Below the pieces are notes generated by a model. It ran no database searches. It was not told the DNA's origin and worked only from the letters and a program-made list of their open reading frames with translations. This document shows positions 1,685-19,587 of a stretch of 64,000 nt of DNA, piece by piece. The position numbers and the translations under genes are program-made. This DNA is from Gemmatimonadetes bacterium SCN 70-22 (GTDB lineage Bacteria > Gemmatimonadota > Gemmatimonadetes > Gemmatimonadales > Gemmatimonadaceae), in the NCBI GenBank assembly GCA_001724275.1, contig MEDZ01000013.1, positions 1 through 64,000 on the forward strand, in the 5' to 3' direction. How positions within the stretch are numbered: position 1 is the stretch's first letter; each line of letters starts with the position of its first letter.

Positions 1685-2103
1685 CTCGATGCCCGCGCGC
1701 CGACGAGAACGTCGCCCGCCAGACTGCGGCAGCGGTGGTAATGATTTTCACGGAGGGCCACACTGAGGACTGCCGAGTCGAATCGTCACCCCCGAGACGG
1801 GTGTTCGCCCTACGAGGGCAACTGGTCAGGCAGCCTCATCCGGGTTGCGCCCTAGGCCCTCGGATGAGACCTTGGCATGACTCGGCCGGTGCTTGGCCGA
1901 CCGTCAGTCCCGGGGGATACCGTGGTCCCGGGATTCGGCGCGAGGTGTCTAGTAAGTGATCGCGTACTCGGAGGCGGAGAATGGATGCGAGCGACGATTC
2001 TTGAAGGAGCGGTTCGGCCGTCAGAGGGGCGCGAAGCACGCTCAGGGGAATGCCCCGCTCCGCAGGTGCGGATTTCGCCACGATCGCACGCCGACGCTCC
2101 CGC
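1685..2103. other. Divergent intergenic region upstream of the defence cassette
   Basis: This separates the minus-strand SH3 gene from the plus-strand helicase gene and must hold promoters for both. An inverted repeat (CTCATCCG at 1835-1842, CGGATGAG at 1861-1868, around a CCTAGG) could be an operator or hairpin. I recognise no promoter consensus and no gene. Confidence 0.4.
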
Positions 2104-5100
2104 ATGACGCTCGAAGAGCTCAAACCGAACGCCACCGTCCGCGGCATCCTCCCCTCTGAGCTGGCGACCGTTGTCGGCGTCACCTGGCACGGCTCGAACG
2201 CCCTCACGGTCGTCTACCGTGGCCCCGAGGGCCGCCTCGCCGAGGAGATCCTCTACCGCGACGACGAACCCCGCCTCGAGTTGGTCGCGGTCGGACGCCC
2301 CTGGAGCTTCGACGGCGACGGCGCCGCCTTTCGGCTGGTCGCCGAGGCGCACCGGATCCGCCTCGCCCACCTCTTCGACCCGGTCCTCGCCGTCCACACG
2401 TCGCTCGTGGACCCGCTCCCGCACCAGATCACCGCGGTCTACGAGCAGATGCTGCCCCGTCAGCCGCTCCGCTTCCTCCTGGCGGACGACCCGGGCGCCG
2501 GCAAGACGATCATGGCGGGGCTCCTCATCAAGGAGCTGATCGCACGCGGCGACCTGCGGCGCTGCCTCATCGTCTGCCCCGGAAGCCTGGTGGAGCAATG
2601 GCAGGACGAGCTCAGCCGCCGTTTCCACCTTCCCTTCGAGATCCTCACGAACGACAAGCTGGAGGCCGCGCGCACGGGGAACTGGTTCCTGGAGAACGAC
2701 CTCGCGATCGCGCGCCTCGACAAGCTCTCGCGCAACGAGGACATCCAGCAGAAGCTCTCGGCGCCGGACTGTCGCTACGACCTCATCGTGTGCGACGAGG
2801 CGCACAAGATGTCGGCGACGTTCTTCAGCGGGGAGGTGAAGTACACCAAGCGCTACAAGCTCGGGCAGCTGCTCTCCACGCTCACGCGCCACTTCCTGTT
2901 GATGACGGCGACGCCGCACAACGGCAAGGAGGAGGACTTCCAGCTTTTCCTGGCGCTGCTCGACGGCGACCGCTTCGAGGGACGTTTCCGCGATGGCGTG
3001 CACCAGGTCGAGGTGTCGGACCTGATGCGCCGCATGGTAAAGGAGAACCTGCTCAAGTTCGACGGTCGCCCGCTCTTCCCCGAGCGAATCGCCTACACCG
3101 TCCCCTACAAGCTCTCCGACCTCGAGGCTCGGCTCTATCGCGAGGTCACCGACTACGTGCGTCAGGAGTTCAATCGCGCCGACGCGCTCCAGAACGACAA
3201 GCGCGCCGGCACGGTGGGGTTCGCGCTGACGATCCTCCAGCGCCGTCTTGCCTCTTCACCCGAGGCGATCTACCAGTCGATCAAGCGCCGCCGAGAGCGG
3301 CTGGAGAAGCGCCTCCGCGAGCTGGAACTCCTGCAGCGCGGTGGCGCGCCGGTCGCACGAGAACCCGCGCCGCGCCTACTCGATGCCGACGACGTCGAGG
3401 ATCTCGAAGAGGCGCCGGAGAACGAGGTCGAGGCGGTCGAGGAGGAGATCCTCGATCAGGCGACGGCCGCCAGCACCATCGCCGAGCTGCAGGCTGAAAT
3501 CGCGACGCTCGCGAGACTGGAGCAGCTCGCGACCGATGTGCGCCGCAGCGGGCAGGACACGAAGTGGCGCGAACTCTCGCGACTGCTGGGCGAGATCTTC
3601 TCATCGAACGGCGGCAATCCTGGCGCCGTCGGCGAGCGACAGCCCCCTCGGGGTGCCGGAGAGATTTTCCCTCCCGTCCCGTCACCTCGCCAGAAACTCG
3701 TGCTCTTCACTGAGCACCGGGACACGCTCAACTACCTGGAGCGCCAGATCGCCTCGCTCCTCGGTCGCCCGCATGCCGTCGTCCTGATCCACGGCGGGAT
3801 GGGACGCGAGGAGCGGCGGAAGGCGCAGGAGAGCTTCCTCCACGACCCCACCGTGCAGGTGCTGCTGGCGACAGACGCCGCTGGCGAGGGGATCAACCTC
3901 CAGCGGGCCCACCTGATGGTCAACTACGACCTCCCGTGGAACCCGAACCGGCTGGAGCAACGATTCGGTCGCATCCACCGAATCGGGCAGACCGAGGTGT
4001 GCCATCTCTGGAACCTCGTCGCTGACGAGACGCGCGAGGGTGACGTCTACAGAACGCTGCTGGAGAAGCTGGAGGAAGCACGAAAGGCGTTAGGCGGTCA
4101 GGTCTTCGATGTCCTAGGGAAGCTTCAATTCGAGGGGAAGGCGTTGAGAGAGCTCTTGCTGGAGGCGATTCGATACGGCGATCAGCCCGAGGTGCGGGCG
4201 CGTCTCACTCGATCGATCGCCAACGGCGTCGATCGGAGCCACTTGCAAGGACTGATCGAGGAACGGGCCCTGGCGCATGATGCCATGGACGCCAGCCGGG
4301 TGGCGCGGATTCGGGAGGAGATGGAACGGGCCGATGCGCGACGCCTCCAGCCGCATTACATCGAGTCCTTCTTTCTTGAAGCGTTCCGGCAGCTGGGCGG
4401 AAACGCGCGCCTGCGTGAGGCCAGGCGTTACGAGGTGTCGCACATCCCGGCCCCTGTGCGGAACCGCGACCGGGTCATCGGCACGGGTGACCCGGTGCTC
4501 CCGCGCTACGAGCGCATCGTCTTCGAGAAGGAGCTGATCGCGCCGCCGGGGCAGCCGCTCGGGGCATTTGTCTGCCCGGGGCACCCGCTGCTCGACGCGA
4601 CGCTCGACCTCACCCTGGAGCGCCACGCTGACCTCCTCAAGCGGGGGACCGTTCTCGTCGACGAGCGCGACCCCGGAACCGAGCCGCGCGTGCTCTTCTT
4701 CATCGAGCACGGTATCCAGAATGCGAGCCTGCTTCCCTCCGGAGAACGTCGCACCATCTCGCGCCGGATGCTCTATGTCGAGATCAACAAAGCGGGCGAC
4801 ACCCGGCACCTGCAGTACGCGCCGTATCTCGATTACCGGCCGCTGAAGGAAGGGGAACCCGGTTGCGATGCCTTGCTCGCCCGACCCGAATTGGCCTGGG
4901 TGACGCGCGAGGTGGAAGCGACCGCTGCTCGCTACGCGGTCGAGCACGTCGTCCCGGAGCACGTGAAGGAGGTCCGTGATCGGCGCCTCGAGCTGATCCA
5001 GAAGACACGCGCCGCGGTGAGGGACCGACTCACGAAGGAGATCACGTACTGGGACCACCGCGCCGCGCGACTGCAACTGGATGAGGCGGCGGGAAAGCCG

Positions 5101-5691
5101 AACGCACGCCAGAACTCCCAGGAAGCGCGGCGTCGGGCCGACGACCTACAGGTTCGCCTGGAGAAGCGACTGGCGGAACTGGAGCGCGAAGCGCAGATGT
5201 CGGCGCTATCGCCAGTCGTGCGAGGGGGGCTCGTCGTGGTTCCGATCGGCCTCCTGAACCAGATCAGCGGCGTTTCGACTCCGGTGGAGACGACGTCGCC
5301 CGATACCCAGGCGTCGGCCGCGCGCGCGCGACGCGTGATCATGGACGTGGAGCGGTCGCTCGGTTTCCACCCCACTGACCGCGAGTTTGAGAAGCTCGGC
5401 TACGACGTGGAGAGCAGCGATCCCAGGACGGGCGAATTGCGCTTCATCGAGGTCAAGGGGCGCGTGAGCGGCGCCGACACGCTCACCGTGACCAAGAACG
5501 AGATCCTCTACTCGTTCAACAAGCCGGATCACTTCATCCTGGCCATCGTCGAGTTTCTCGATGACGAGCGGCATCGGGTGCACTACGTGCGCCGGCCGTT
5601 CGATCGCACGGGGATCACGACGGACTTCAACGGGGCGAGCGTGAACTTCCCGTTCGCGCAGCTGGTGGAGCGGGGGGAGGAGCCGCGGTGA
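2104..5691 (+). CDS. SNF2-family helicase with C-terminal DUF3883/nuclease-like domain (defence cassette)
   Basis: About 1195 residues from the ATG at 2104; an earlier in-frame start at 2050 adds a short extension. Walker A DDPGAGKT is near 129-135, the DEAH box (CDEAHKM) near 231, motif III MTATPHNG near 268, motif V TDAAGEGINL near 592 and motif VI QRFGRIHRIGQ near 620. This is a complete SNF2/RapA-type SF2 motor. A charged coiled-coil insertion (about 400-500) splits the lobes. The C-terminus (about 1095-1150) has FEKLGYDV, a spacer, then FIEVKGR and a downstream TKNE, as in DUF3883/PD-(D/E)xK-like domains, so it may bind or cut DNA. Similar helicases occur in DISARM (DrmD) and in DUF1156/DUF499 defence loci. 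It overlaps the next gene by 4 bp and is the first gene of the cassette. Confidence 0.85.
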   Translation: MTLEELKPNATVRGILPSELATVVGVTWHGSNALTVVYRGPEGRLAEEILYRDDEPRLELVAVGRPWSFDGDGAAFRLVAEAHRIRLAHLFDPVLAVHTSLVDPLPHQITAVYEQMLPRQPLRFLLADDPGAGKTIMAGLLIKELIARGDLRRCLIVCPGSLVEQWQDELSRRFHLPFEILTNDKLEAARTGNWFLENDLAIARLDKLSRNEDIQQKLSAPDCRYDLIVCDEAHKMSATFFSGEVKYTKRYKLGQLLSTLTRHFLLMTATPHNGKEEDFQLFLALLDGDRFEGRFRDGVHQVEVSDLMRRMVKENLLKFDGRPLFPERIAYTVPYKLSDLEARLYREVTDYVRQEFNRADALQNDKRAGTVGFALTILQRRLASSPEAIYQSIKRRRERLEKRLRELELLQRGGAPVAREPAPRLLDADDVEDLEEAPENEVEAVEEEILDQATAASTIAELQAEIATLARLEQLATDVRRSGQDTKWRELSRLLGEIFSSNGGNPGAVGERQPPRGAGEIFPPVPSPRQKLVLFTEHRDTLNYLERQIASLLGRPHAVVLIHGGMGREERRKAQESFLHDPTVQVLLATDAAGEGINLQRAHLMVNYDLPWNPNRLEQRFGRIHRIGQTEVCHLWNLVADETREGDVYRTLLEKLEEARKALGGQVFDVLGKLQFEGKALRELLLEAIRYGDQPEVRARLTRSIANGVDRSHLQGLIEERALAHDAMDASRVARIREEMERADARRLQPHYIESFFLEAFRQLGGNARLREARRYEVSHIPAPVRNRDRVIGTGDPVLPRYERIVFEKELIAPPGQPLGAFVCPGHPLLDATLDLTLERHADLLKRGTVLVDERDPGTEPRVLFFIEHGIQNASLLPSGERRTISRRMLYVEINKAGDTRHLQYAPYLDYRPLKEGEPGCDALLARPELAWVTREVEATAARYAVEHVVPEHVKEVRDRRLELIQKTRAAVRDRLTKEITYWDHRAARLQLDEAAGKPNARQNSQEARRRADDLQVRLEKRLAELEREAQMSALSPVVRGGLVVVPIGLLNQISGVSTPVETTSPDTQASAARARRVIMDVERSLGFHPTDREFEKLGYDVESSDPRTGELRFIEVKGRVSGADTLTVTKNEILYSFNKPDHFILAIVEFLDDERHRVHYVRRPFDRTGITTDFNGASVNFPFAQLVERGEEPR

Positions 5692-7307
5692 CGCGCTCCG
5701 AGTTCCTGGCGTTGCTCAACGCTCCAGAAGGGACACGCCTGGAGTGCAAGGAGGCGCGCGCTCGGTTCGAGTTCGATGAGCTGGTGCGCTACTGCGTTGC
5801 GTTGGCCAACGAAGGCGGCGGCACCATCCTGCTCGGCGTCACGGATACCCGCCCGCGCACTGTGGTCGGCAGCCAGGCCTTTTCTGAACCGGGTCGAACG
5901 GAAGCGGGGATCTTCGAGCGGCTCGGACATCGGGTAAGCATCGAGGAGCTGATCCATGACGCCCATCGCGTGCTGATCGTGCGAGTGCCGCCTCGGTCTG
6001 CGGGCGCTCCGTGGAGCGATCGCGGACAGTACTGGATGCGGGCAGGAGATGCGCTGCAACCGATGTCCGACGACACCTTGCGCGCGATTCACAATGAATC
6101 TGCCCATGACTTTTCGGCCGAGATCTGTCCAGACGCCGTGCTCGCCGATCTGGCGGCAACGTCCATCGCGGAGTTCCGTCGCCGCTGGGCTGCTCGCAGC
6201 GGCAACGACCGCATTCTCGCCTGGACGGACGACGAGCTCCTTCGGAATGCGGAGCTAACCTCGGAACGCGGGATCACGTTCGCTGCGCTCTTGCTGCTCG
6301 GGGCCACGGGCGCACTCGGGCAGTTTCTGCCGCAAGCAGAGATCGTGTTCGAGTATCGGTCGTCGGAGTCCGCCGGACCGGCGCAGGATCGCCTGGAGTT
6401 TCGCGAGGGATTCCTCGGCTACCACGACCGTCTGTGGGATCGCATCAACCAGCGGAACGAACGACAGAGCTATCAGGACGGCTTCTTTCGCGCCGAAGTC
6501 GCGACCTTCGACGAACAGAGCATTCGAGAGGCGATCCTCAACGCGTTCTGCCATCGGGACTACCGACTGGGAGCGTCTGTCTTCGTACGACAGTTCGCGC
6601 GCCGGCTGGAAGTGGTGAGTCCGGGCGGCTTTCCCGCGGGGATTACTCCGGACAACGTCCTCGACCAGCAGAACCCGCGAAATCGACGTCTCGCCGAGGC
6701 CTGCGCTCGATGCGGGCTGATCGAGCGCGCGGGTCAGGGGATGAACGTGATGTTCGAGCAGGCCATCAAGCAGAGCAAGCCGCTCCCGGATTTCCGCGGC
6801 TCGGCAGGGCATGAGGTCCGGCTCACGCTCCGCGGTGACGTGTCGAATCCAGCGTTCCTAAGGTTCATCGAGCGAGTGGGGGCCGAGACGCTGTCCTCCT
6901 TCGATACGCGCGACCTGCTCGTGCTCGATTCCCTTCAGCGAGGCGAGGCCACTCCCGACGCCCTTCGGGACCGCCTCCCTCGCCTCCTGGAACTCGGACT
7001 CATCGAACGAATCGGCGGGGGACGGGGCACGCGCTACCTCCTGAGTCGCCGGTACTACTCGGCGATCGGGGAGCGCGGAACCTACACGCGACGGCGCGGA
7101 CTGGACCGCGGGGCCAATAGGGAGCTTCTGATGAAGCACCTGATCGACGTGGGCGCGGACGGAAGCCCGTTCTCCGAGCTGCAGCAGGTGCTCCCCGGTC
7201 TCTCGCGTGGGCAACTCAGGACGCTGCTGGTCGAGCTTCGGGACGCGGGGCGGGTGCGCGTCGAGGGGTTGCGGCGTTGGGCTCGCTGGTTTGCGGTCGG
7301 TGCGTAG
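5688..7307 (+). CDS. AlbA_2/Schlafen-like DNA-binding protein with GHKL-type ATPase region
   Basis: About 539 residues from a GTG overlapping the previous stop, which implies translational coupling. Residues about 10-135 form an AlbA_2 (Schlafen-like) domain: LECKEA, ANEGGGTILLGV, then a strand ending YWMRAGD. Residues about 270-365 match the HATPase_c_4-type block common in this family: EAILNAFCHRDY, VRQFARRLEVVSPGGFPAGIT, NPRNRRLAEACARCGLIERAGQGM. The last 120 residues look like tandem winged helices. Proteins of this build are often annotated as transcriptional regulators or ATP-binding proteins and are frequent in defence islands. Its likely role is regulator or nucleic-acid-sensing partner of the cassette; this is inferred, not known. 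Confidence 0.8.
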   Translation: MTRSEFLALLNAPEGTRLECKEARARFEFDELVRYCVALANEGGGTILLGVTDTRPRTVVGSQAFSEPGRTEAGIFERLGHRVSIEELIHDAHRVLIVRVPPRSAGAPWSDRGQYWMRAGDALQPMSDDTLRAIHNESAHDFSAEICPDAVLADLAATSIAEFRRRWAARSGNDRILAWTDDELLRNAELTSERGITFAALLLLGATGALGQFLPQAEIVFEYRSSESAGPAQDRLEFREGFLGYHDRLWDRINQRNERQSYQDGFFRAEVATFDEQSIREAILNAFCHRDYRLGASVFVRQFARRLEVVSPGGFPAGITPDNVLDQQNPRNRRLAEACARCGLIERAGQGMNVMFEQAIKQSKPLPDFRGSAGHEVRLTLRGDVSNPAFLRFIERVGAETLSSFDTRDLLVLDSLQRGEATPDALRDRLPRLLELGLIERIGGGRGTRYLLSRRYYSAIGERGTYTRRRGLDRGANRELLMKHLIDVGADGSPFSELQQVLPGLSRGQLRTLLVELRDAGRVRVEGLRRWARWFAVGA

Positions 7308-7322
7308 ACTGCCGCCCGGTCG

Positions 7323-7440
7323 CTATGAATCTCCGACTATGAATTCTACGCTTAAACGTCATACTTAGAAGCGTAAGTCTTTGTATCGCAACAGGTTCTA
7401 TGAATACTCCCTCCGAAGAAACGTGCATATGATGTCATAG
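7323..7440. promoter_or_regulatory. Putative promoter/operator region with CTATGA(AT) repeats
   Basis: CTATGAAT occurs three times in direct orientation (7323-7330, 7337-7344, 7398-7405), and TCATAG, the reverse of CTATGA, at 7435-7440. Also present are an imperfect palindrome TATGATGTCATA (7428-7439) and an inverted pair TACGCTT / AAGCGTA around 7346-7374. This density of near-identical sites in an AT-rich island before the methyltransferase suggests binding sites for a dedicated regulator, perhaps the AlbA_2 protein just upstream. Regulation is inferred; no promoter elements were assigned. Confidence 0.5.
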
Positions 7441-7551
7441 AGTCGGCACATAGGGCAGCGGCGGCGACCGCCGACCTGTCTCCCCCCGACCCAGCCGACG
7501 CGCGAGGCCGTGACGCCCCCGATTAACTCTCGCGGTCGACCGGAAGAAGAA

Positions 7552-7569
7552 ACGCCCCTGGCGGGGCGT
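7552..7569 (-). terminator. Hairpin with T-rich tail on the minus strand
   Basis: ACGCCCC-TGGC-GGGGCGT forms a perfect 7-bp stem. Read on the minus strand it is followed by TTCTTCTTCC, the layout of an intrinsic terminator for leftward transcription. No leftward gene lies to its right, so it may block antisense transcripts from the methyltransferase gene or be a relic. Confidence 0.35.
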
Positions 7570-7672
7570 CGGGCCGGTGATGCTATCGCCGGCGGGGGGC
7601 GCTTCCACAATCGGCAGCGCTTCCGACGGCGTCAAGTCAGCCAGAAGAACCTCTCGTGGTCAACGAGCACCC

Positions 7673-10585
7673 ATGACCGTCAAGTCCCACAAGAAACTCA
7701 TCGAAGTCGCCCTCCCCCTCGAGGCCATCAACAAGGCCTCGGCGCGGGAGAAGTCGATCCGGCACGGCCACCCCAGCACGCTGCACCTGTGGTGGGCGCG
7801 GCGCCCGCTGGCGGCGGCGCGGGCGGTGATCTTCGCGCAAATGGTGGACGACCCATCGTCGTGTCCGGACCTCTTTCCCACCGAGAAGGCGCAGGAGAAG
7901 GAGCGGCAGCGACTCTTCCGGATCATCGAGGAGCTGGTGCAGTGGGAGAACACGACCAACGAGGAGGTTCTCCAGAAGGCTCGCAACGAGATCTGGCAGA
8001 GTTGGCGCCGCGCCTGCGCCGAGAACGCGGACCACCCGCGGGCGAAGGAGCTGTTCGACCGGCACACGCTCCCCGCCTTCCACGATCCGTTCGCCGGCGG
8101 CGGGGCGTTGCCGCTGGAGGCGCAACGGCTGGGGCTCGAGGCGTACGCGAGCGACCTGAACCCGGTGGCGGTGCTGATCAACAAGGCGATGATCGAGATC
8201 CCGCCTCGATTTGCCGGAAAGCCGCCGGTGCGGCCGCGGTCGAAGGACGACCCGCCGGAGTTCATGCACCGGCAGTGGAAGGGAGCGCAGGGGTTGGCGG
8301 AGGACGTGCGCTACTACGGGCAGTGGATGCGCGACGAAGCGGAGAAGCGGATCGGCAAGCTGTATCCGCCCATCGAGGTGACCGCCGAGATGGCGAAGGG
8401 GCGGCCGGACCTCAGGCCGTACGTGGGACAGAAGCTCACGGTGATCGCCTGGCTGTGGGCGCGCACGGTGAAGAGCCCCAACCCGGCGTTTGCCAAGGTG
8501 GACGTGCCGCTGGCCTCGACCTTCATGCTGTCGACCAAGGCGGGGAAGGAGTCGTACGTGGAGCCGCTGATCGAGGAGGGTGGCTACCGGTTCACGGTGA
8601 AGGTGGGGAATCCGAAGAATGCGGCGCGGGCAAAGAGCGGGACCAAGCTGTCGCGCGGGGCGAACTTCGCGTGCCTGATGTCGGGGGCGCCGATCGAGGG
8701 CGACTACATAAAGGCAGAAGGCAAAGCCGGGCGGATGGGGGCGCGACTGATGGCGATCGTGGCTGAGGGGGAGCGAGGGCGCGTGTATCTCGCGCCGACG
8801 CCTGAGCATGAAGCGGCGGCACGGAAGGCGCAGCCGGAGTGGAGGCCAGAGCTGAATATCTCCGGAAGCACGCAGTACGTAGGCGTGAAGCCCTACGGAG
8901 TCGAACGCTTCGATGCAATCTTCACCGAACGACAAACGCTGGCGCTAACGACGTTCTCAGGTCTCATATCCGAAGCGATGCAGCAGGTGCATCGTCACGC
9001 CGTAGGTATGGGACTAAAGGATGACGGCATGACGCTGCGCGACGGCGGCAGCGCTGCGACGGCGTATGCAGAATCTGTCGCGGTGTACTTGGCTTTTGCG
9101 CTTAGCAAGCAGGCGGACCTTGCCAACAGCCTTTGCGGATGGGAGCCGATTGCTCAGTGCCCGCGACACCTCTTCGGTCGGCAGGCCATTCCAATGCTTT
9201 GGGATTATGCCGAGGGTAATCCCCTGGGAAACAGCTCAGGCGCATGGACGGTGTTCCTTGATGGCATCGTCAAGGCGCACACAAGGGCCTTTGAGCACGT
9301 TGCCCCCACCGCACGAGGTCACGCGCAACAAGGCGACGCAAGTGTGCAAAGAATCTCTGTTGACAAGATTGTCTCAACGGATCCGCCATACTACGACAAC
9401 GTCCCCTATGCCGACCTTTCGGACTTCTTCTACGTCTGGCTACGGCGCTCTCTCCGTGGAGTCTTCCCGGATCTGTTCGCAACAGTCGCAGTACCGAAGG
9501 CCGAGGAACTCGTGGCTTTCGCCTATCGACACGAGGAAGGGAAGAAGGGCGCCGAAGCATACTTCCTTGATGGCATGACGAGCGCAATGCGCCGTCTTGT
9601 CGACCAGTCCCATCCAGCGTTCCCGGTCACCATCTACTATGCCTTCAAACAGTCTGAGAGCTCCGCGGAGAGCGGTACTGCCAGCACTGGTTGGGAAACA
9701 TTCCTCGACGCGGTGATTCGCGCTGGATTCGGCACGACGGGTACATGGCCAATGCGTACCGAGAATGACTCTCGCCTAAGAGGCCAGACTTCGAACGCTC
9801 TCGCATCCAGTATTGTGCTTGCCTGCCGCAAGCGCGCCTCCGACGCCCCCACCGCCACCCGCCGCGAGTTCGTCGCCGCGCTCAAGTCCGAACTCCCCGC
9901 GGCGCTCGCGCACCTGCAACGCGGCAACATCGCCCCGGTGGACCTGGCGCAAGCCGCCATCGGCCCCGGCATGGCGATCTACACTCGTTATGCGCAGGTG
10001 CTCGACGCGCAGGGCAAGCCGCTCTCCGTGCGCGAGGCGCTGGCGCTCATCAACCAGGTGCTCGACGAGACGCTGGCCGAGCAGGAGGGGGACTTCGACG
10101 CCGACACCCGTTTCGCCGTGACCTGGTTCGAGCAGCAGGGGTTCGCCGAGGGGGAGTTCGGCGTGGCCGACGTGCTGGCGCGGGCCAAGAACACCAGCGT
10201 GGACGGGCTGCGCGAGGCGGGCGTGCTGGAGTCCAAGCGCAGCAAGGTGCGGCTGCTCACTGCCGACGAGCTGCCGGCCGACTGGGACCCGGCCACCGAC
10301 ACGCGCCTCACGGCGTGGGAGATGGTGCATCATCTCATCCGCGCGCTCAACGCCGGGGGCGTGACGCAAGCGGCGGCGCTGCTCAAGGCGCTCGGCGCCA
10401 AGGGGGAGGTGGCGCGGGAGCTGGCGTATCGGTTATATGCGATCGCCGAGCGAAAGAAGCGGGCGGCGGATGCGTTGGCGTACAATGGGTTGGTGCAGAG
10501 TTGGCCGGAGATTGCGCGGTTGGCGCAGGAAGACGGCAAAGCACGCGTCACACAGGTGGACGCCTTCGCCGACACGGAGGAGTAG
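7673..10585 (+). CDS. DUF1156-domain DNA methyltransferase (defence cassette)
   Basis: About 970 residues from the ATG at 7673 ([20 protein letters not shown]). The N-terminus, with [27 protein letters not shown] (given here in two pieces: [14 protein letters not shown] and [13 protein letters not shown]), is characteristic of DUF1156. A SAM-binding motif [15 protein letters not shown], lies near 137, and a catalytic motif IV, DPPYYDN, near 570, as in amino-methyltransferases acting on adenine N6 or cytosine N4. It is the modification component of the cassette and probably marks host DNA. About 430 residues separate motif I from motif IV, so target recognition may sit between them. DNA from about 8850 to 9815 (residues about 393-714) is roughly 55-62% GC while the flanks are about 70-73%, suggesting a swapped segment. 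It ends 3 bp before the DUF499 gene. Confidence 0.88.
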
Positions 10586-10588
10586 CCC

Positions 10589-13500
10589 ATGGCCATCACC
10601 AACCGCGACCGCGTCACCCGCGGCCTCGACCTCTTGCGCGACGGACTTCAGCCGTTCGTCGAACGCGAACTCAAGTCGAAGTACGGCGACCGCTGGCCCG
10701 CCGAACTCCGCGCCGGCCTCGCCGGGCGCAACATCGGAATGGGCGACAACCCGCTGCAGGATCCGCAGGTCCTCCTCTTCGTCACCGACAAGCTGTGGGG
10801 GCCCGTCTTCGGGAACATCCTCTCCCGGAGCGACCGCACGCTCGCGCTCGAACTCACCGACGTGCGCAACAAGTGGGCACATGCCGACTCGTTCAGCAGC
10901 GATGACGTGGACCGCGCACTGGACTCGGTCGAACGGCTGCTCAACAGCGTCGCCGCGCCACAGGCCGACGAGGTCCGCAAGCTCAAGCTCGACTTGCGGC
11001 GCACGATCTACGACGAACAGGTGCGCGGGGCACATCGTCGGGCGGGCGGAACACTGATCGAGCCGACTGCCGCCAGCACCATCTCGGCCTGGCGCGACGT
11101 GGTCACGCCGCACGCGGATGTCGCAAGCGGCCGGTACCAGCAGGCGGAGTTCGCCGCCGATCTCTGGCAGGTGCACATCGGGGAGGGCTCGGACGAGTAC
11201 AAGAAGCCCGCCGAGTTCTTCCGTCGCACCTACCTCACCGAGAGCCTCAAGCAGCTCCTCATCGGTGGAATCCAGCGCATTTCTGGGCAGGGGGGCGACC
11301 CGGTCGTGCAGCTGCAGACCAATTTCGGTGGCGGCAAGACGCACTCGATGCTCGCGCTGTACCACCTGTTCTCCGGCGCGCGCATCCCGGACCTCCCGGG
11401 GGTCGATACGCTGCTCGCCGAGGCAGGGGTCAAGTCGCTCCCGAAGGCGAAGCGGGTGGTCCTGGTCGGGAACAAGATCTCGGCGGGGAGCCCTTCGACG
11501 AAGCCTGATGGCACGGTGGTTCGCACGCTGTGGGGAGAGCTGGCGTATCAGCTCGGCGGCAAGAAGGCCTACGCCCGCATCAGGGAGGACGACGAGCGCG
11601 CGACGAGTCCCGGCGACACGCTGCGCGAGCTGTTCGTCGAACACGGCCCAGCGCTCATCCTCATCGACGAGTGGGTGGCGTACGCCCGCCAGCTGCACGA
11701 CCAGTCGGACCTTCCGGCTGGGAGCTTCGAGACGCAGTTCACCTTCGCCCAGGCGCTCACCGAGTCGGCCAAGCTCGCCGGCAACTGCCTCCTGGTGATC
11801 TCGCTCCCGGCGTCGGACACGACCGGGTCGCCGCACACGCTCTCCGACGACGTTGAGGTAGGCGGCGTGCGCGGGCGCACGGCGCTCGACCGGCTGCGCA
11901 ACGTGGTTGGGCGCGTGGAGTCGTCGTGGCGCCCGGCGACGGCGGAAGAAGGGTTCGAGATTGTGCGGCGACGTCTGTTCGAACCCATCGCCGGCGATGC
12001 TGGCTTCAAGCAGCGGGACATCACGGCGCGCGCCTTCGCGGAACTCTATCGCAGCCAGACCGGGGAGTTTCCCAGCGAGTCGCGCACCGTCGACTACGAG
12101 AAGCGCATCCAGGCGGCGTATCCCATCCACCCCGAGGTCTTCGACCGACTGTACACCGACTGGTCGACGCTGGTGAAGTTCCAGCGCACGCGCGGCGTGC
12201 TGCGCCTGATGGCGGCGGTGATCCACTCGCTGTGGGAGAAGGGCGATCGCAACCCGCTCATCCTCCCCTCCACCATCCCCATCGACGATCCGCGCGTGCA
12301 GTTCGAACTCACGCGCTACCTGTCCGATAACTGGGTCCCGATCATCGAGAAGGACGTCGACGGCCCCAGCTCGCTCCCCAAGAAGCTCGACGAAAACCCC
12401 GCGCTCGGCCGCCTGCACGCCGCCCGTCGCGTCGCACGCACCATCTACCTGGGCTCCGCGCCGCATTCCGGCACCGCTCATCGCGGCATCGACGACCAGC
12501 GCATCAAGCTTGGGTGCGTGATGCCGGGCGAGCCGCCCGCGGTATATGGAGACGCCCTGCGGCAGCTCGCGGCGGCGGCGACGTACCTGTACCAGGACGA
12601 ATCCCGCGCCTGGTATGACACGCAGCCCACCGTCACCAAGCTGGCCGCTGACCGCGCCGAGCAACTCAAGCGATCGCCCGACAAGGTGGCGCACGAGATC
12701 GAGGAGCGGTTGCGACTCGACCTGCGCAAGCACGGCGACTTCTCGCGCATCCATCCGGTGCCGCGCAGTGGCGCCGATGTGCCCGATGATCTCGACGCTC
12801 GGCTCGTCGTGCTCTCCGCCGAGTACCCGTACGCAGGAGAGCCCGACAACGCAGCCTTCAACGCCGCCCGGGCCATTCTCGAGTCGCGCGGCAACGCACC
12901 GCGACTGTACAGGAACACGTTGGTCTTTCTCGCTGCCGACAAGGCGAGGTTGCAGGACCTCGACGAGGCGGTACGCAAGTACCTCGCGTGGGAGTCGATC
13001 CTGGCGGAGAAGGAGACGCTTAACCTGACACCGTTCCAACAACGCCAGGCCGAGTCGCAGCGCAGGACCGCCGAATCGACCGTGACCGCGCGCCTCCCCG
13101 AGGCGTACCAGTGGCTGATCATCCCCGAGCAGGCGACGCCGCAGGAGCCCATCTCCCTGCGCGCGGCGAAGCTGACGGGGAGCGATGCGCTCGCAGTGCG
13201 GGCGAGCCGGAAGCTCAAGAGCGAGGAGACGCTGATAGGCGCGCTCGGGTCAACCGTGCTGCGGATGCGGATGGATGACGTGCCGCTGTGGCGCGGCGAT
13301 CACGTCGAGGTGCGTCAGCTGGTCGAGGATTTCGCGAAGTACCCCTACTTGCCGAGGCTCGCTGGGGCGGAGGTGCTGGTGCGAGCCGCGCGCGACGGGG
13401 TGGCGTTGCTCACCTGGGAGACGGATACGTTCGCGTTCGCGGAGAGTTACGACCAGACGGGGAAGCGATATCGCGGGCTTCGTTGTGGGCAACAGGTGCA

Positions 13501-13918
13501 GTCGATCGCGGTTGAGGGAGCGGGCCTTCTCGTCAAGCCGAGCGCGGCGCGGGAGCAGCTCGATCGTGTTCAACCGGGCGGACAACCACCGAGGCCAACG
13601 CCTCCGGAGGGCTTGGGAGTCGAACCGGGCGGTGGTGGTCGCGGCCGGCCATCCGTGCCGCCTCCTCCAACCCCGCCCGCGTTGCCCAAGCGGTACTACG
13701 GGACTGTCACTCTCGAGGCAGCGCGAGTTGGGCGAGACGCGGGGAAGATCGCTGAGGAGGTCATCTCGCATCTGGCGGGACTCGACGGAGCGAAGGTCAC
13801 GGTCACGCTGGAGATCTCAGCGGAGGTGCCTGGTGGTGTGCCGGAGAATGTCGTGCGGATCGTGATGGAGAATGGGAGGACGTTGCGGTTTGCGGGGCAG
13901 GGATTCGAGAGGGAGTGA
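10589..13918 (+). CDS. DUF499 ATPase with N-terminal Swt1-type HEPN domain (defence cassette)
   Basis: About 1109 residues. Residues 1-125 match the Swt1-family HEPN domain: RGLDLLRDGLQPFVERELK, then DVRNKWAHAD with the R-x4-H signature at 93-98, then a helix. HEPN domains with this motif are often ribonucleases in toxins and abortive-infection proteins. DUF499 follows, with a P-loop GGGKTHSM near 247-254 and a Walker B-like ALILIDEW near 352. DUF499 proteins are P-loop ATPases found beside DUF1156 methylases. The C-terminal part (about 990-1045) is Pro/Gly-rich and flexible, then a compact end domain. It starts 3 bp after the methylase and overlaps the next gene by 4 bp, so the three are made together. 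Confidence 0.85.
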   Translation: MAITNRDRVTRGLDLLRDGLQPFVERELKSKYGDRWPAELRAGLAGRNIGMGDNPLQDPQVLLFVTDKLWGPVFGNILSRSDRTLALELTDVRNKWAHADSFSSDDVDRALDSVERLLNSVAAPQADEVRKLKLDLRRTIYDEQVRGAHRRAGGTLIEPTAASTISAWRDVVTPHADVASGRYQQAEFAADLWQVHIGEGSDEYKKPAEFFRRTYLTESLKQLLIGGIQRISGQGGDPVVQLQTNFGGGKTHSMLALYHLFSGARIPDLPGVDTLLAEAGVKSLPKAKRVVLVGNKISAGSPSTKPDGTVVRTLWGELAYQLGGKKAYARIREDDERATSPGDTLRELFVEHGPALILIDEWVAYARQLHDQSDLPAGSFETQFTFAQALTESAKLAGNCLLVISLPASDTTGSPHTLSDDVEVGGVRGRTALDRLRNVVGRVESSWRPATAEEGFEIVRRRLFEPIAGDAGFKQRDITARAFAELYRSQTGEFPSESRTVDYEKRIQAAYPIHPEVFDRLYTDWSTLVKFQRTRGVLRLMAAVIHSLWEKGDRNPLILPSTIPIDDPRVQFELTRYLSDNWVPIIEKDVDGPSSLPKKLDENPALGRLHAARRVARTIYLGSAPHSGTAHRGIDDQRIKLGCVMPGEPPAVYGDALRQLAAAATYLYQDESRAWYDTQPTVTKLAADRAEQLKRSPDKVAHEIEERLRLDLRKHGDFSRIHPVPRSGADVPDDLDARLVVLSAEYPYAGEPDNAAFNAARAILESRGNAPRLYRNTLVFLAADKARLQDLDEAVRKYLAWESILAEKETLNLTPFQQRQAESQRRTAESTVTARLPEAYQWLIIPEQATPQEPISLRAAKLTGSDALAVRASRKLKSEETLIGALGSTVLRMRMDDVPLWRGDHVEVRQLVEDFAKYPYLPRLAGAEVLVRAARDGVALLTWETDTFAFAESYDQTGKRYRGLRCGQQVQSIAVEGAGLLVKPSAAREQLDRVQPGGQPPRPTPPEGLGVEPGGGGRGRPSVPPPPTPPALPKRYYGTVTLEAARVGRDAGKIAEEVISHLAGLDGAKVTVTLEISAEVPGGVPENVVRIVMENGRTLRFAGQGFERE

Positions 13919-16900
13919 TCGCTGTGGAGAACGAATTCGAGATTCCGTGGCCGAAGCTAGTCGCATTCCATCGTGCCATCGTTCGGCGTGCAGAGGAGGG
14001 CTTCTGGGCGCTCGACGCGAGTTCCAGCACGAGTGAGAGGTGGAGCAGCGTGCAGGCCTTCGTCCCATTGGAGCTGGACGGGCCATGGCAGATCGAGGCG
14101 GCTCAACTGAACAGTGGGCCGTGGCGGCAGCTGCTGCATCAGGGGAAGCTCGAGACGATCTTCCTCGGTGGCCCGTGCTTCGTCGGGAGTGCGACGTTCG
14201 GCTCGAAGTTGAAGAGCTCCTGGCAGCCCCTCTTCTACCGTGAGGTCTCCATCAACGAGCGAGAGGGCGGCCTGGAGATTCGCCCGTCTGGCGACACGTG
14301 GGTACTGAGTCCGCCTGTGCACCAGAGACTCGATCGCTGGCAACTACGGCCCGACCTGGAGCCAGACGCGTTGAGCGCTCAGGCTCTCGTGGAAGCGCGC
14401 CGGATTCTCAAGCAAGACGGCTCGCCCGCGCACGATGCGCTGTATCGTGCCTTGGTACGTCTCATTCCGGAAGTCGAGTCTCGCTTCGAACTCGACCCAC
14501 GGCGAGCGTTTCCGACCACACCGCCTACTGGATGGGTGCTGTTCAGCCCCCCCACGAGTGTTGGTCCCTACAATCGACACCTCATCCGCGACTACGACCA
14601 GCTCGAGCGCCTACTGGTGCTGCAGAAGCCGTCCGAGGTTGGCGGTCTCTCGCTACTTCGCCCGATCGCGCAGCCAGCGACGCCGCGACATGCGGAGGTG
14701 CTTCCGTTCGTGGCGCTCAACACTGCGCAAGAACGCGCAGTCAGCGCCATGCTTGGCGGACAGCCGGTCACGGTGGTCTCCGGGCCACCCGGTTGCGGCA
14801 AGAGCCAAGTGGTCGTGTCGCTGCTTCTCAACGCGTGGGCCCGCGGGCAGTCGGTCCTGTTCGCCAGCAATAACAACAAGGCCGTGAGCGTGGTGGCGGA
14901 ACGCCTCGCTCCATTTGACGAGGACAGCCCGGTGGCCATCCGGGCCGGGAGTGGCCCTAGCAACAACGTTGCGACTGCGCTGCGACGCATCATTCAGTCC
15001 GCTGGAGCCACGACGTCGCAGAAGGCGCAATGGTCCAAGGCGCTCGTTGGCTCTCTCCTTGAGGAGCGACAGGTTCTGCGAGGGCATCTCGATTCAGGCA
15101 CACCCCAGCAGGTTGAAGAGGCGCTGGCTTCGGCCCTATCCACTTTCAGTCGCTCGCGGCGCATGTACGCCGACCTGCAGCAGAGGTTGGAGGTCCTGTC
15201 TGATCGTTTTCGGCTCATTACGGGGCTACCGATTTCGCCGACGGCGGCGCGAGACGTGCTTCGCAGCACCGAGCAGTGGTTGCTGCAGGTCGCGGCACTT
15301 CGCGACCAGGTTCCACTCGATACCGCCGAGCGCGAGAGACTCGACGACGAGGCGAGGGGGGCGCGGGACCACTATCTCAAGGCGCTGACGGAGTGCGCGG
15401 TCTCACCTTCCTCGTTCACGGACCAGGAGTCCGTCCCACAGCTTTCCTCAATCGACAGCAGCCTCCGCGCTTGGATGCTGGCCGCTCGTGAGACTGTCAC
15501 TGCGCAGGGGGCACGTCTGCTCGCTGATGAGGAGTGGTCCACAGCGTGGGATCGATGGACCTCGTCGACACATGCACTGGCGTTCGTAGACACGGCGCGC
15601 ACGGTGCTCGCGAGCGTCGTGGAACTGTTGCCGGCTCTGAGGACCACGGTCGCAACCGCTGATGAAGCGCGCGCTCTCCACGTCGAACGGCGACACGCCC
15701 TTGTCGGCGCGGGCTGGCCTCCGCATGTCACCGAGCCGTCCATTCCTCCCGACGGGCTTCGCCGGTGGTTGTCGCTTCATGCCGAGCTGCTTGCCCTTCC
15801 GCACTCGTCCTACCACCCTGTCGCTTGGCTCACACGTCGGCGCGTGCGTCGCCAACAGGCCGTCATCGAGGCATCCCTACGTCCAGACCTCCCCCTCGAC
15901 GTCTGGAGGAGCGTCGGAGCGCTCAATGACGCGGGGCGTAGTCGACTGGCGGACGTCCTGGAGAGCCTGCTCAGGCTCATGGAGGCCCGTGAGCGACTAG
16001 TTCCAGCCACCGCTGCCGCATCAGAGGTCGCCGCCAGACTTGCGGCGCTCGCCCCAACACTGCTTTCCCTTGGTATCTCGCCTCCGCGCTCGCCGCTTGA
16101 TATCGAGGGTTGGCTGGCTATCGCCGAGGAGTTGCGTGCGCTTGCTCAAGCAGCCCTTGACGCGGATCACGGATGGCGTGCGAGAGAGAGCCGGGAGGAG
16201 CTTCGAAAGCGGCTCGCGCTCGTTGGTTCGAGCTGGACGGAATTGACGCACGGAGGAACGCTCCTCGCCACGTGGATGTCCGAGCGAGGGAAGGACGTCG
16301 ATACCGCGATGACAGCGCTCACAACGGCCCCAACGTCTCGGGTGCTGGAGATCGCGCATGAGTATCTGCAGTCGGGCCCCCTGATGCAGTTGTGCGAGTC
16401 GGTTCACGACGCCGTGCTTCGCCAAGACGAATCGATGCGCGCGGCGAGTCGCCGCGATGCGATTCCTTCCGAGGCAGAGCGTCGCCAAGCCGCGTGGTCG
16501 TCACGCGGTGAGTACGTGCTCAGTCTACCGACTGACCAAGCCGATTGGCCGGACAGGAGTGCTTTTGAAGCGCGCCTGTCCATGCTGCGGGCGTGGGTCG
16601 TCGAGTGGACGGCGTTCTATGACGGTGACCGCCCCGGGCTGCTCAAGGCGATACACGTCGAGCGAACCCTGGCGTCGGAGCGCCTTCGAGAAGCGGCTGC
16701 ATCCATACCCCCCGGCAGCGCGTCCGCCGGCATTCGCGAGGAAGTTGACGGCATCCTCTCGACAGACAACGAGTGGCCGATATCGCAGCTGCAGGAGCGC
16801 TTCGCCCCGTTCCTGCCGGAGGGCATCAGGCTTCGCCTGGATGAGCTGCAAGCGGAGCTATCACAGTCCGCAATGGATGAAGGGCGTAGCGCCTGGCTCC

Positions 16901-18225
16901 AGCGACTTCATACCGAGGTCGATGCGCTCAAGGCGGTCACGACGCTCAAGCATCTTGCGGGGGATGGCGGGCAGGGTGACCTCACCGCGCACGGAGACGT
17001 CTTTCGCCAGGCACTGCGCGTGGCTCCGGTGTGGATCACCACCGCACAGACCACGCGCTCCATTCCGCTTCTTCCGCAGCTGTTCGATCTGGTGGTAATC
17101 GATGAAGCGTCGCAGTGCACGCTGACCAACCTGCTCCCCATGCTCTACAGAGCGAAGCGATTGGTCGTCATCGGTGATCCGCAGCAGCTTCCCGCAATCA
17201 CAGTCGTTGGGCCGAGCGAAGAGCGGCATTTGGCCGAGGAACACGACGTCCGACGGTTCCTGCTCGAGTACGGCCACGATCGCCGAGACTTGTTTTCCGT
17301 GGCGCGGGAAGCGCTTCCAAGAGGTGCAGCGGATGTCATCATGCTCGATGAGCACTATCGAAGCGATCCGCTGATCATCGGCTTTGCGAATCGCTACGTC
17401 TACCAACGGAAGCTCATCCTGCGGCGACCACCTTCAGGGCCCGCTTCCTCGTCCATTAGACAGGGAATCTCCCACAAGCATGTAAATGGACGTCCGTACC
17501 GGAAGAGCGGAGGCTCATGGGTGAACGAACAGGAGGCCAGGGCTGTCCTTGAGGTCGTACGGACCGTCCTGGCGACCGGCATCGAACCACGTGAACTGGG
17601 GGTCGTCACGCCGTTCGCCGGACAGAAGGAGCGCATCGGTGTGCTCCTCAGGGAGTCTGGCGTACCCGAACAGGTGCACGTGAACACCGCTTTCGGATTT
17701 CAGGGAGATGAGCGCCAGGTCATCGTCTTTAGCGCGGTGGTTAGTGACGGCGTTGAGTCAGGAACCAGTCGGTGGGTCGAACAACCACCGAATCTGCTGA
17801 ATGTCGCGCTGACTCGTGCGAAGGACGGGCTGATCGTCGTGGCCAATCTGGACTATTGCAGGAAACAGAGCGGGCTCCTGGGGGACTTAGCCGCTTATCT
17901 CGACGACGTGGATGTACTCCGCAATGGCATCATCGAAGAGCTCTCGCTCTTCAATTGGATGACCATGGAGGGGTGGGTCCCGAGAGTGCACCCGAAGGTT
18001 GGGAACGAGACGCCGACCTTCGTCTTGGCTGAACCGCAGGCCCATCGCCTCGCCGTGATCGTGCGCGCCCTGACGGAGTTGGAGCAGCCACGCGATGAGC
18101 GCGAGCGAGCGCGAGCTCTCACGCTCGCGGGGGCAGGCTACCGGGTACTCGAGTTCACCGCGCGTGACGTTAGGGAGACCCCAACGGCTGTGCTCAAGCG
18201 CATCAGGGAGAGGATGACTGCGTGA
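13915..18225 (+). CDS. UPF1/DNA2-like superfamily 1 helicase (defence cassette)
   Basis: About 1436 residues from a GTG that overlaps the DUF499 stop. Walker A GPPGCGKS is near 289-296. A long, mostly helical insertion of about 760 residues precedes motif II VVIDEASQC near 1060 and GDPQQLP near 1088. Then come DEHYRSDP, VVTPFAGQ, a motif V region AFGFQGDERQVIVFS and LNVALTRAKD near 1300. The motor is therefore intact and of the AAA_11/AAA_12 (UPF1/DNA2) kind. The first 270 residues and the insertion match no domain I can name. The C-terminal 100 residues show no PD-(D/E)xK nuclease motif. Last gene of the cassette; it probably translocates on or remodels nucleic acid in the defence reaction. 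Confidence 0.85.
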   Translation: MIAVENEFEIPWPKLVAFHRAIVRRAEEGFWALDASSSTSERWSSVQAFVPLELDGPWQIEAAQLNSGPWRQLLHQGKLETIFLGGPCFVGSATFGSKLKSSWQPLFYREVSINEREGGLEIRPSGDTWVLSPPVHQRLDRWQLRPDLEPDALSAQALVEARRILKQDGSPAHDALYRALVRLIPEVESRFELDPRRAFPTTPPTGWVLFSPPTSVGPYNRHLIRDYDQLERLLVLQKPSEVGGLSLLRPIAQPATPRHAEVLPFVALNTAQERAVSAMLGGQPVTVVSGPPGCGKSQVVVSLLLNAWARGQSVLFASNNNKAVSVVAERLAPFDEDSPVAIRAGSGPSNNVATALRRIIQSAGATTSQKAQWSKALVGSLLEERQVLRGHLDSGTPQQVEEALASALSTFSRSRRMYADLQQRLEVLSDRFRLITGLPISPTAARDVLRSTEQWLLQVAALRDQVPLDTAERERLDDEARGARDHYLKALTECAVSPSSFTDQESVPQLSSIDSSLRAWMLAARETVTAQGARLLADEEWSTAWDRWTSSTHALAFVDTARTVLASVVELLPALRTTVATADEARALHVERRHALVGAGWPPHVTEPSIPPDGLRRWLSLHAELLALPHSSYHPVAWLTRRRVRRQQAVIEASLRPDLPLDVWRSVGALNDAGRSRLADVLESLLRLMEARERLVPATAAASEVAARLAALAPTLLSLGISPPRSPLDIEGWLAIAEELRALAQAALDADHGWRARESREELRKRLALVGSSWTELTHGGTLLATWMSERGKDVDTAMTALTTAPTSRVLEIAHEYLQSGPLMQLCESVHDAVLRQDESMRAASRRDAIPSEAERRQAAWSSRGEYVLSLPTDQADWPDRSAFEARLSMLRAWVVEWTAFYDGDRPGLLKAIHVERTLASERLREAAASIPPGSASAGIREEVDGILSTDNEWPISQLQERFAPFLPEGIRLRLDELQAELSQSAMDEGRSAWLQRLHTEVDALKAVTTLKHLAGDGGQGDLTAHGDVFRQALRVAPVWITTAQTTRSIPLLPQLFDLVVIDEASQCTLTNLLPMLYRAKRLVVIGDPQQLPAITVVGPSEERHLAEEHDVRRFLLEYGHDRRDLFSVAREALPRGAADVIMLDEHYRSDPLIIGFANRYVYQRKLILRRPPSGPASSSIRQGISHKHVNGRPYRKSGGSWVNEQEARAVLEVVRTVLATGIEPRELGVVTPFAGQKERIGVLLRESGVPEQVHVNTAFGFQGDERQVIVFSAVVSDGVESGTSRWVEQPPNLLNVALTRAKDGLIVVANLDYCRKQSGLLGDLAAYLDDVDVLRNGIIEELSLFNWMTMEGWVPRVHPKVGNETPTFVLAEPQAHRLAVIVRALTELEQPRDERERARALTLAGAGYRVLEFTARDVRETPTAVLKRIRERMTA

Positions 18226-18379
18226 TGATGCATACCACATCGCACATTCGCTGCCAGACCCACCCATCGAGTTGAGCGCGCGACGCGTTCGGGTGTAGAC
18301 TGATCGAGGCCCCCGGCGGATTACTCCTCGCTGAAGGCGTGAGAAGCGAGCCTACCGGAGTGCGCGTGGTAGACCATGC
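18226..18379. other. Spacer between the cassette and a gene remnant
   Basis: No gene or clear terminator is visible. It separates the plus-strand cassette from a convergent minus-strand gene remnant. Confidence 0.4.
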
Positions 18380-18563
18380 TCAGATCCCCTCGTCGGGTGC
18401 CGCCACGATCCAGATGCGTCGTTGCGGCGCTTCTGCCTTCAGCTCGTCATCGAGCTTCTCATAATTTGACAGCAAGTCCTCGAGCAGGTCGTCCTGCGAC
18501 CACAGGCGCACCTTGACGAAGCTCGCCGCCAGTTCCCTGGCCACGCTCGACTTGAAGGCTCCC
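18380..18563 (-). pseudogene. 3' remnant of a restriction-endonuclease-like gene cut by the IS element
   Basis: Reading leftward from the IS, one frame encodes about 60 residues ending at TGA (18380-18382): GAFKSSVARELAASFVKVRL, then WSQDDLLEDLLSNYEKLDDE, then LKAEAPQRRIWIVAAPDEGI. This resembles the end of Mrr-like or related restriction endonucleases, where an LW-x2-DDLL segment follows the catalytic core; the assignment is from memory of the family. The catalytic core is absent. The frame is closed on its 5' side by an in-frame TAG lying inside the CTAG insertion site, so the gene may already have been broken before the IS arrived. No matching 5' part is visible beyond the IS. Confidence 0.55.
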
Positions 18564-18567
18564 TAGG
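18562..18567. repeat. Left target-site copy CCTAGG
   Basis: CCTAGG abuts the left end of the IS. With GCTAGG at the other end it forms an N-CTAG-N pair differing at one base. IS481 elements are known to favour NCTAGN targets and duplicate about 6 bp. Confidence 0.7.
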
Positions 18568-18594
18568 TGTAATTGACGAGGAGGTTGTTCACTG
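18568..18594. repeat. IS481 left terminal inverted repeat
   Basis: A 27-bp end beginning TGTAATTGACGAGG and ending GTTGTTCACTG; differs from the right end at four positions, three of them clustered at positions 4-6. Confidence 0.88.
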
Positions 18595-18654
18595 AGCCGT
18601 AGCAGGGCAAGCTGGAGTTGTCGAGACCACAACCGGCAACTGCCAGAGGGCTCA

Positions 18655-19587
18655 GTGAACGTCCACAAGCATGCACGATTGACCCCGCGGGGGCGAGCCC
18701 TCGCGGTCCAGCGCGTCCTCGCGGGCGAACGCGCGCCCGTTGTCGCCCACGGGTGTGGGGTGTCCGTCCGGACCGTGTGGAAGTGGGTCCGTCGCTGCCG
18801 CGAGCTGGGGGAGGTGACGGCGCGGAGCACCACGGATCGCTCCTCGCGCCCCCGCCGGATCGCACGACAACTCCCCCGGCACCAGCGGCGCCAGATCCTC
18901 CGCGCACGCCGCAAGCGCTGGAGTTCGCTCCGCATTGCGCAGCATTACGCGCTGGCCGTGTCCACGGTGGTGACCATCCTGCGGCGCCACGGCCTCAACC
19001 GGCTGGCGCGCCTGGAACCGCCCCGGCCGGTGCAGCGCTACGAGCGCCGGCGCCCCGGCACGCTCGTCCACTTCGACGTGAAGAAGCTGGGGAAGATCGG
19101 CCGCGTCGGCCATCGCATGCACGGCGACCGCACGACCCGCGTACGCGGGATCGGCTGGGAGTATGTCCATGTCGCCATCGACGACTGCACGCGCCTGGGC
19201 TACGCGGAAGTGCTCGCCGACGAACAGGGCGAGACCACCGCGGGCTTTCTGCAGCGGGCCTACGCCTGGTATGCCGCCCACGGCGTCACGATCCGCCGCC
19301 TGCTCACCGACAACGGCGGCAACTACCGGAGCGCGGCCCTGGCGGCCGCCTGCAAGGCGCACCGGATCCGGCACTACTTCACGCGTCCCTACCGGCCCCA
19401 GACCAACGGCAAGGCCGAACGCTTCATCCGCACCCTGCTCCACGAGTGGGCGTATGCGCACGCCTACGGCCGCTCCGTCTATCGCACCCGCGCCCTACCC
19501 GCGTACCTTCGCTTCTACAACACCGAGCGCCGTCATACCGCGCTCCACTTCCTCACCCCGCTCCAGCGCCTCGCGGCGAAGCAGTGA
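18655..19587 (+). CDS. IS481-family transposase
   Basis: About 310 residues from a GTG start. The N-terminal helix-turn-helix (about 8-60) contains LTPRGRALAVQRVLAGER, then GVSVRTVWKWVRRCRE. The DDE integrase core (rve domain) follows: first Asp in LVHFDVKKLGKIGR, second Asp in LLTDNGGNYRS and the catalytic Glu in TNGKAERFIRTLLHEWAY. The end LRFYNTERRHTALHFLTP is typical of the family. Full length, no frameshift. The stop lies inside the right inverted repeat, as is common in compact IS481 elements. Confidence 0.95.
   Translation: MNVHKHARLTPRGRALAVQRVLAGERAPVVAHGCGVSVRTVWKWVRRCRELGEVTARSTTDRSSRPRRIARQLPRHQRRQILRARRKRWSSLRIAQHYALAVSTVVTILRRHGLNRLARLEPPRPVQRYERRRPGTLVHFDVKKLGKIGRVGHRMHGDRTTRVRGIGWEYVHVAIDDCTRLGYAEVLADEQGETTAGFLQRAYAWYAAHGVTIRRLLTDNGGNYRSAALAAACKAHRIRHYFTRPYRPQTNGKAERFIRTLLHEWAYAHAYGRSVYRTRALPAYLRFYNTERRHTALHFLTPLQRLAAKQ

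Follow-up and report, generated by a model that had tools for sequence, protein, structure and literature searches.

A repeat cluster behind the AlbA_2/GHKL/winged-helix gene of an Hma defence cassette as a candidate operator array

The window analysed here, a stretch of 64,000 nucleotides from Gemmatimonadetes bacterium SCN 70-22, carries a cassette of five plus-strand genes. The cassette opens with hmaA (2050..5691), which encodes a SNF2 helicase with a NOV_C domain (PADLOC HmaA, 1667 bits; Pfam Helicase_C and NOV_C), and continues with a 4-nt overlap into a gene for an AlbA_2/HATPase_c_4 (GHKL)/winged-helix protein (5688..7307; Pfam PF04326 and PF13749), the putative regulator of this study. 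Beyond a gap follow hmaB (7673..10585, ATG at 7673), a DUF1156 adenine methylase (PADLOC HmaB, 1544 bits), hmaC (10589..13918), a DUF499 ATPase with an N-terminal HEPN_Swt1 domain (PADLOC HmaC, 1106 bits; Pfam), and a gene for an SF1 helicase (AAA_11/AAA_12; 13915..18225; PADLOC and Pfam searches) that overlaps hmaC by 4 nt. HmaA, HmaB and HmaC are thus found together, and by its gene content the cassette is an Hma system, with predicted protection against phage. The HEPN_Swt1 domain of HmaC (residues 11-121, window 10589-10951, plus strand) could be an RNase arm. Apart from the 365 nt between the regulator gene and hmaB (7308-7672), all junctions are overlapping or 3 nt apart; this gap is the sole intergenic space among the five genes and so the only junction at which a second promoter is to be expected.

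The regulator is a protein of 539 residues with a predicted N-terminal Schlafen/AlbA_2 domain, a GHKL-type ATPase domain and two C-terminal winged helices. PF04326 (42.9 bits) and PF13749 (59.5 bits) both scored over their cut-offs, and AlphaFold2 gave a good model of the C-terminal region as two winged helices (residues 388-539; 6849..7304, plus strand; mean pLDDT 87.5), whereas the model of the whole protein was poor (pLDDT 61). Foldseek matched the C-terminal model to generic winged helices (TFIIIC, best E 3e-4), with 3lmm at an E of about 1e-3. The only solved relative by sequence was DIP2311 (PDB 3lmm, E 2.9e-21), whose family we take to be COG2865. Two relatives lie on viral contigs, and a plasmid-borne relative of the pAQ3 protein is annotated MloB; searches of the open-licence literature found no function or binding site for this family of DIP2311 and the MloB-type genes of hsd loci. 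Residues E14, E19 and D53 were invariant in seven orthologues of the regulator; in a wider automatic alignment of 39 array-bearing genes they were kept in 28, 25 and 21, with gaps that come partly from cut ORFs. E14 and E19 share the E-x4-E spacing of the acidic triad described for SLFN13 (E205/E210/D248; PMC5862951), the distance from E19 to D53 being 34 in the regulator vs 38 in SLFN13.

The gap begins with an AT-rich island (7308-7460, no strand, 47% GC) that holds a cluster of short repeats. Three exact copies of CTATGAAT lie on the plus strand (7323-7330, 7337-7344 and 7398-7405), followed by an exact inverted site, TCATAG as read on the plus strand (7435-7440, minus), and by an inverted core, CATAG (7449-7453, minus). 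The first-pass annotation had reported the first four sites within 118 bases, in an AT-rich island of a GC-rich locus, after the AlbA_2 gene and before the methylase, ATPase and helicase genes; its coordinates proved exact and its gene order correct, and the fifth core is an addition. GC content is 39.8% at 7323-7440 vs 69.2% for the window, the lowest of any 118 bp: only 0.008% of all such stretches are as low, every one at this place. CTATGA is not in excess over the whole window (7 vs 6.2 expected), and four of the seven occurrences fall inside 7323-7440; the 8-mer CTATGAAT occurs six times in the 4.7-Mb genome, three of them here. When the island (7308-7460) was shuffled with dinucleotides preserved, none of 2000 shuffles held an 8-mer three times, and none reached four CTATGA or five CTATG; some 8-mer occurred three times in 11 of 2000 shuffles of the whole gap (7308-7672). 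Two of the five sites are inverted, and the copy spacings, 14 and 61, are off an 11-bp ladder.

Several other identities for the cluster were considered and dropped. There was no Rfam family match, a tRNA was rejected, and a search of the gap for a relic of hmaB returned nothing convincing. In type III toxin-antitoxin loci the toxin is preceded by tandem repeats of about 36 nt; the window copies are 8 nt long and of mixed orientation. A terminator-like hairpin with a T/C-rich tail lies on the minus strand at 7551-7570, in the GC-rich half of the gap, with no minus-strand gene evident.

We scanned for relatives of hmaB and obtained 80 loci (numbered with the prefix L), in seven of which (L006, L008, L011, L013, L049, L055 and L080) a complete or partial orthologue of the AlbA_2 gene lies between hmaA and hmaB. 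None of the hmaA-hmaB gaps of these seven contains a CTATGA cluster. Other short direct repeats were present at or just past the AlbA_2 stop in six of them: ACGCAATTC in L006, L013 and behind the first copy in L008, CTATCACC behind the second copy in L008, CCATAGA in L055 and L080, and less regular GCAATC repeats in L011. No repeats follow the AlbA_2 stop in L049, which has almost no gap. Read on the opposite strand, CCATAGA has the CTATG core in common with the window. Lack of the motif in related loci had been named beforehand as grounds for giving up the idea of a regulatory site; the exact word is indeed not conserved, but the kind of element, short direct repeats at or after the stop of the regulator gene, is.

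To score this kind of element across the family, HATPase_c_4 genes were gathered from relatives of the window's genome, from 49 genomes with hma loci and from stretches around further matches (40 fetched, with the weakest and some edge rows left out). Words of 7 in pairs 8-70 bp apart were scored from -40 to +160 of the stop against dinucleotide shuffles, leaving out copies with an identical flank and genes whose stop codon is not on the contig; the flank starts at -40 because an earlier start at -6 missed L006, where the first copy sits inside the gene. Among 58 genes with a C-terminal tail of at least 60 aa, part of whose flanks had already been inspected before scoring, 16 reached p<=.01 at the 3' flank and 42 lay above it, and the same genes gave 0/58 in mid-gene and 3/54 on the 5' side. 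Genes with little or nothing beyond the ATPase domain (tail 0-25 aa) gave 1/23, the lone positive (L145) being cut by an in-frame TGA, and intermediate tails gave 1/5. A second set was picked by protein match alone, before its flanks were inspected (matches lacking a locus were left out, and L201 was dropped as identical to the gene in L011). Here 14 of 32 3' flanks reached p<=.01 and 18 reached p<=.05, with 0/32 in mid-gene; control 3' flanks of other genes, drawn from loci L002-L081 and L183-L200, gave 22/612 and 52/612 at these thresholds. In a third set, built around the pAQ3 protein, the counts were 2/20 and 6/20 (mid-gene 1/20), with copies mostly 66-99 bp apart and so largely past the score's 70-bp reach. 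The window's own 3' flank scored p 0.010 from -6 and p 0.022 from -40. Strong direct repeats stand 5' of the AlbA_2 gene, as opposed to the usual 3' place, in L178 and L182 (p 0.002 each).

In the loci scanned, copies of each word are nearly confined to the region from about -30 to +130 of the stop and do not precede the gene, apart from isolated distant copies in several loci, an inner copy in L162 and, in L191, three copies in the gene that follows. Of 39 array loci, 14 have a copy that begins ahead of the stop codon. Spacing was counted between identical copies after removal of near-identical flanks and of L103, with distances from one locus not independent of each other. For genes with a single winged helix, 19/23 distances of 8-45 bp and 30/34 of 46-115 bp fell within 1 of a multiple of 11 (chance 3/11). 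Genes with a double winged helix, the window's group, gave 49/68 at 8-45 bp (chance again 3/11) and 9/21 at 46-115 bp, which is not phased. An earlier in-phase count of 58/73 was set aside, as it includes nine 9-bp steps of L103, where a long 9-bp tandem array (CCTGAGACG, L103:2096-2190) lies behind the AlbA_2 gene, in contrast to the 11-bp arrays. Short-range steps of about 11 bp occur across the family and not in the window itself. Inverted copies, in the window and in L162 (2/7), together with the near-helical spacing, point to a function in duplex DNA rather than in RNA.

In the alignment of the seven orthologues, the window, L055, L080 and L049 have the wing RRWARW, and L006, L013 and L011 have T[KQ]AARW. 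We compared word cores with wing classes in 53 double-winged-helix genes, requiring at least two ATTGC copies for the TKA class; classes and cores were defined after seeing the data, and related genes are not independent. ATTGC went with the TKA wing (7/8 vs 8/45 others, p 0.0003), TTAGC with the PKW wing (6/10 vs 5/43, p 0.003) and AATCTA with the GYW wing (5/7 vs 0/46, p 7e-6), while the window's own core, CTATG, showed only a trend with the RRW wing (3/7 vs 5/46, p 0.06). By these sequence comparisons, three of the four word cores associate significantly with wing class. A Mantel test against the word over 38 loci gave a weak correlation for the C-terminus (rho 0.125, p 0.011) and p 0.096 for the protein body.

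We also asked which genes the arrays face. An Acidovorax plasmid and pAQ3 of Picosynechococcus PCC 7002 have the order hsdM-hsdS-regulator-hsdR, and in both the space separating the regulator gene from hsdR (107 bp in pAQ3) has a pair of copies at a distance of 66 bp (p 0.06 and 0.002 by the repeat score, respectively). On an Aeromonas plasmid, with the order regulator-hsdM, the gap has loose CTATCG/CGATAG copies only (p 0.16), and the Neotabrizicola flank has no repeats by this score. Downstream neighbours with Pfam support are co-directional in L189, L190, L191 and L195 and convergent in L183 and L186, where the array does not have to act on a cassette downstream of it; convergent frames without Pfam support follow in L184, L187 and L188. 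From these arrangements, the array belongs to the regulator gene, and in many loci, not all, it also precedes the next defence gene.

Before hsdR genes, two clusters of sites flank a promoter-sized stretch. TATAAT-likeness upstream of the second cluster, summed over 21 hand-anchored loci, was 96 as against 89.3 (sd 2.75) in shuffles, a value reached by 1 of 300; the positions of the second box were set by hand, and L237, L245 and L255 were among the loci left out. Between the two clusters of single-winged-helix loci before hsdR, a CAATGAGTTR-like stretch recurs by eye and is perhaps part of a promoter. In the window, a scan of 1700-18700 found no sigma-70 site at 9/12 of the consensus, with 1.4 expected; a lone, weak -10-like hexamer, TATGAT, lies at 7428-7433 (plus), and no -35 was found for it. 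The first-pass annotation had suggested that an internal promoter with operator sites could lie in the gap: the reading as sites of the AlbA_2 protein is well supported by comparison, through the family's own repeats and the word-wing cores (three of four), but the promoter did not appear in the sigma-70 scan. The position of the cluster in the sole gap of the cassette fits separate expression of the hmaB side.

Related loci also carry traces of rearrangement at the start of hmaB. Three different arrays lie in L008, and an hmaB start comes after each of them (7023-7160, 46 codons; 8824-8892, worn; 9001, intact); L008:6563-9180 looks like a serial insertion of regulator cassettes at this point. 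Worn hmaB starts also occur upstream of an intact hmaB in L049 (818-874), L056 (8643-8768) and L030 (2376-2498), which suggests that the 5' end of hmaB is a recurrent insertion point. An ACGCAAT array directly follows hmaA in L043 (6941-7060) and L071; that of L043 lies inside a frame of 70 aa that opens with codons like those of an AlbA_2 start, as if the AlbA_2 gene had been deleted and the array kept. Arrays resembling TAATCGTCCGAT stand just before hmaB in L004, in L008 and, less clearly, in L022 (p 0.07). In L004 (5918-6123) and L022 (8894-9000) the array is preceded by the gene of a 413-aa ATPase, with no AlbA_2 gene, and is either an orphan or another regulator's own array.

We consider that the cluster is probably an operator array of the AlbA_2 regulator encoded just upstream, controlling hmaB, hmaC and the helicase gene. 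The C-terminal winged helix would bind CTATGA-type sites in the gap, and the bound regulator would set transcription of hmaB-hmaC-helicase, from a promoter that may lie within 7308-7672, apart from that of hmaA-albA_2, most likely by repression, which infection may then relieve. Within the window the direct evidence is the cluster itself, and the remainder is comparison. The observations that bear on this reading are the sites, their clustering beyond chance, the like element after genes of the family, the helical spacing across loci and the word-wing link in three of four cores. A coincidence in an AT-rich spacer, where short words of low complexity do recur and where the window flank alone gave p values of 0.01-0.02 by the broad score, would be a hard case to make: composition-keeping shuffles of the island never produced the cluster, and the family exceeds the 612 control flanks, so that we give this explanation almost no weight. 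We also regard it as very improbable that the repeats work in RNA, with the AlbA_2 domain binding them as an intercistronic element. The gap could be part of a transcript, and Schlafen domains are described as acting on RNA (PMC5862951), but the inverted copies and near-helical spacing argue for duplex DNA and there was no match to an Rfam family.

Two other explanations keep the array in DNA. The protein might bind it and act on its own gene or product, the bound array serving as a roadblock at the end of the transcription unit or as a DNA leash on a Schlafen-type nuclease. The arrays do overlap or follow the stop even beside a convergent neighbour (MerR in L183, TPR in L186), in 14 of 39 loci a copy starts inside the gene, and the acidic residues, with the E-x4-E spacing of SLFN13, are invariant in seven orthologues; in hsdR and hma loci, however, the array sits shortly before the next start, the acidic residues are kept in only part of the array genes, and the L043 array persists without its gene. 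Such a role is unlikely in our view. More doubtful still is a decayed or orphan array, left behind by an earlier regulator cassette and no longer bound. Irregular spacings and the length of the gap would suit a relic, as does the survival of arrays without their genes in L043 and L071 and the stacking of three in L008, but the regulator gene of the window is intact and adjacent, the three 8-mers of the cluster are identical, and the regulator's wing is the same as in L055 and L080, whose arrays have the CTATG core.

Beyond the operator reading of the window, a broader scheme can be offered as a tentative possibility. AlbA_2/GHKL/winged-helix proteins may make up a very large family whose members regulate defence and are encoded in swappable cassettes that each bring a 3' operator array with a word set by the wing; side-by-side binding at 11-bp steps, up to about 100 bp, would cover the promoter of the next nuclease or methylase gene, the GHKL ATPase would release it on infection, and cassettes would be exchanged where hmaB begins, a point suggested by L008 with its three stacked arrays and their hmaB starts. 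If this were true, a common uncharacterised family beside Hma, BREX-related and Type I systems would be one of regulators whose sites can be read behind each gene, and specificity, switching and cassette exchange would become directly testable. It would bear on the balance of nuclease and methylase in multi-gene defence cassettes, and would offer an alternative to seeing Schlafen-kinase-wHTH proteins as back-up RNases only.

Regulators of several kinds are encoded with restriction and defence genes. Restriction controller (C) proteins are small helix-turn-helix proteins with C-boxes upstream of their own gene; the present regulator is a large multidomain protein with no CTATG or CATAG in the 350 bp upstream of hmaA (1700-2050), and we rejected this identity. 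Another group comprises the BrxR/CapW WYL-domain regulators. BrxR-type regulators are described as encoded with phage-defence cassettes (PMC9122601, PMC9122589, PMC9122588), which is the likeness to the present case; they carry a WYL domain, in contrast to the AlbA_2/GHKL architecture found here. Hma itself was named in PMC8565338, and such DUF499-centred systems have been placed with BREX, with Schlafen-kinase-wHTH proteins proposed as likely RNase effectors (PMC12839542); the words 'promoter', 'operator' and 'intergenic' have no match in the main text of that paper. The window shares with these systems the order of hmaA, hmaB and hmaC, family-level PADLOC scores and an ATPase with a HEPN domain, as described for Type 1 BR systems (PMC12839542), and differs from them in that an AlbA_2 gene with its array separates hmaA from hmaB and an SF1 helicase is appended. 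In searches of the open-licence literature we recognised no description of binding sites for the AlbA_2/GHKL/winged-helix family. The nearest worked-out analogue is RptR, a 9-kDa repressor of Type I restriction-modification islands that, as described in PMC12255303, occupies a promoter through three short direct repeats, which hold TAGCTA palindromes and lie upstream of its own gene. An RptR-like binder may act at the arrays of L218 and L220, which contain TAGCTAA. The present regulator is not RptR, being a 539-aa AlbA_2/GHKL protein with CTATGA sites downstream of its gene and a word that varies by locus; what the two have in common is the place of a local regulator in a defence operon, an association with Type I systems (here at the level of the family) and short direct repeats as putative sites.
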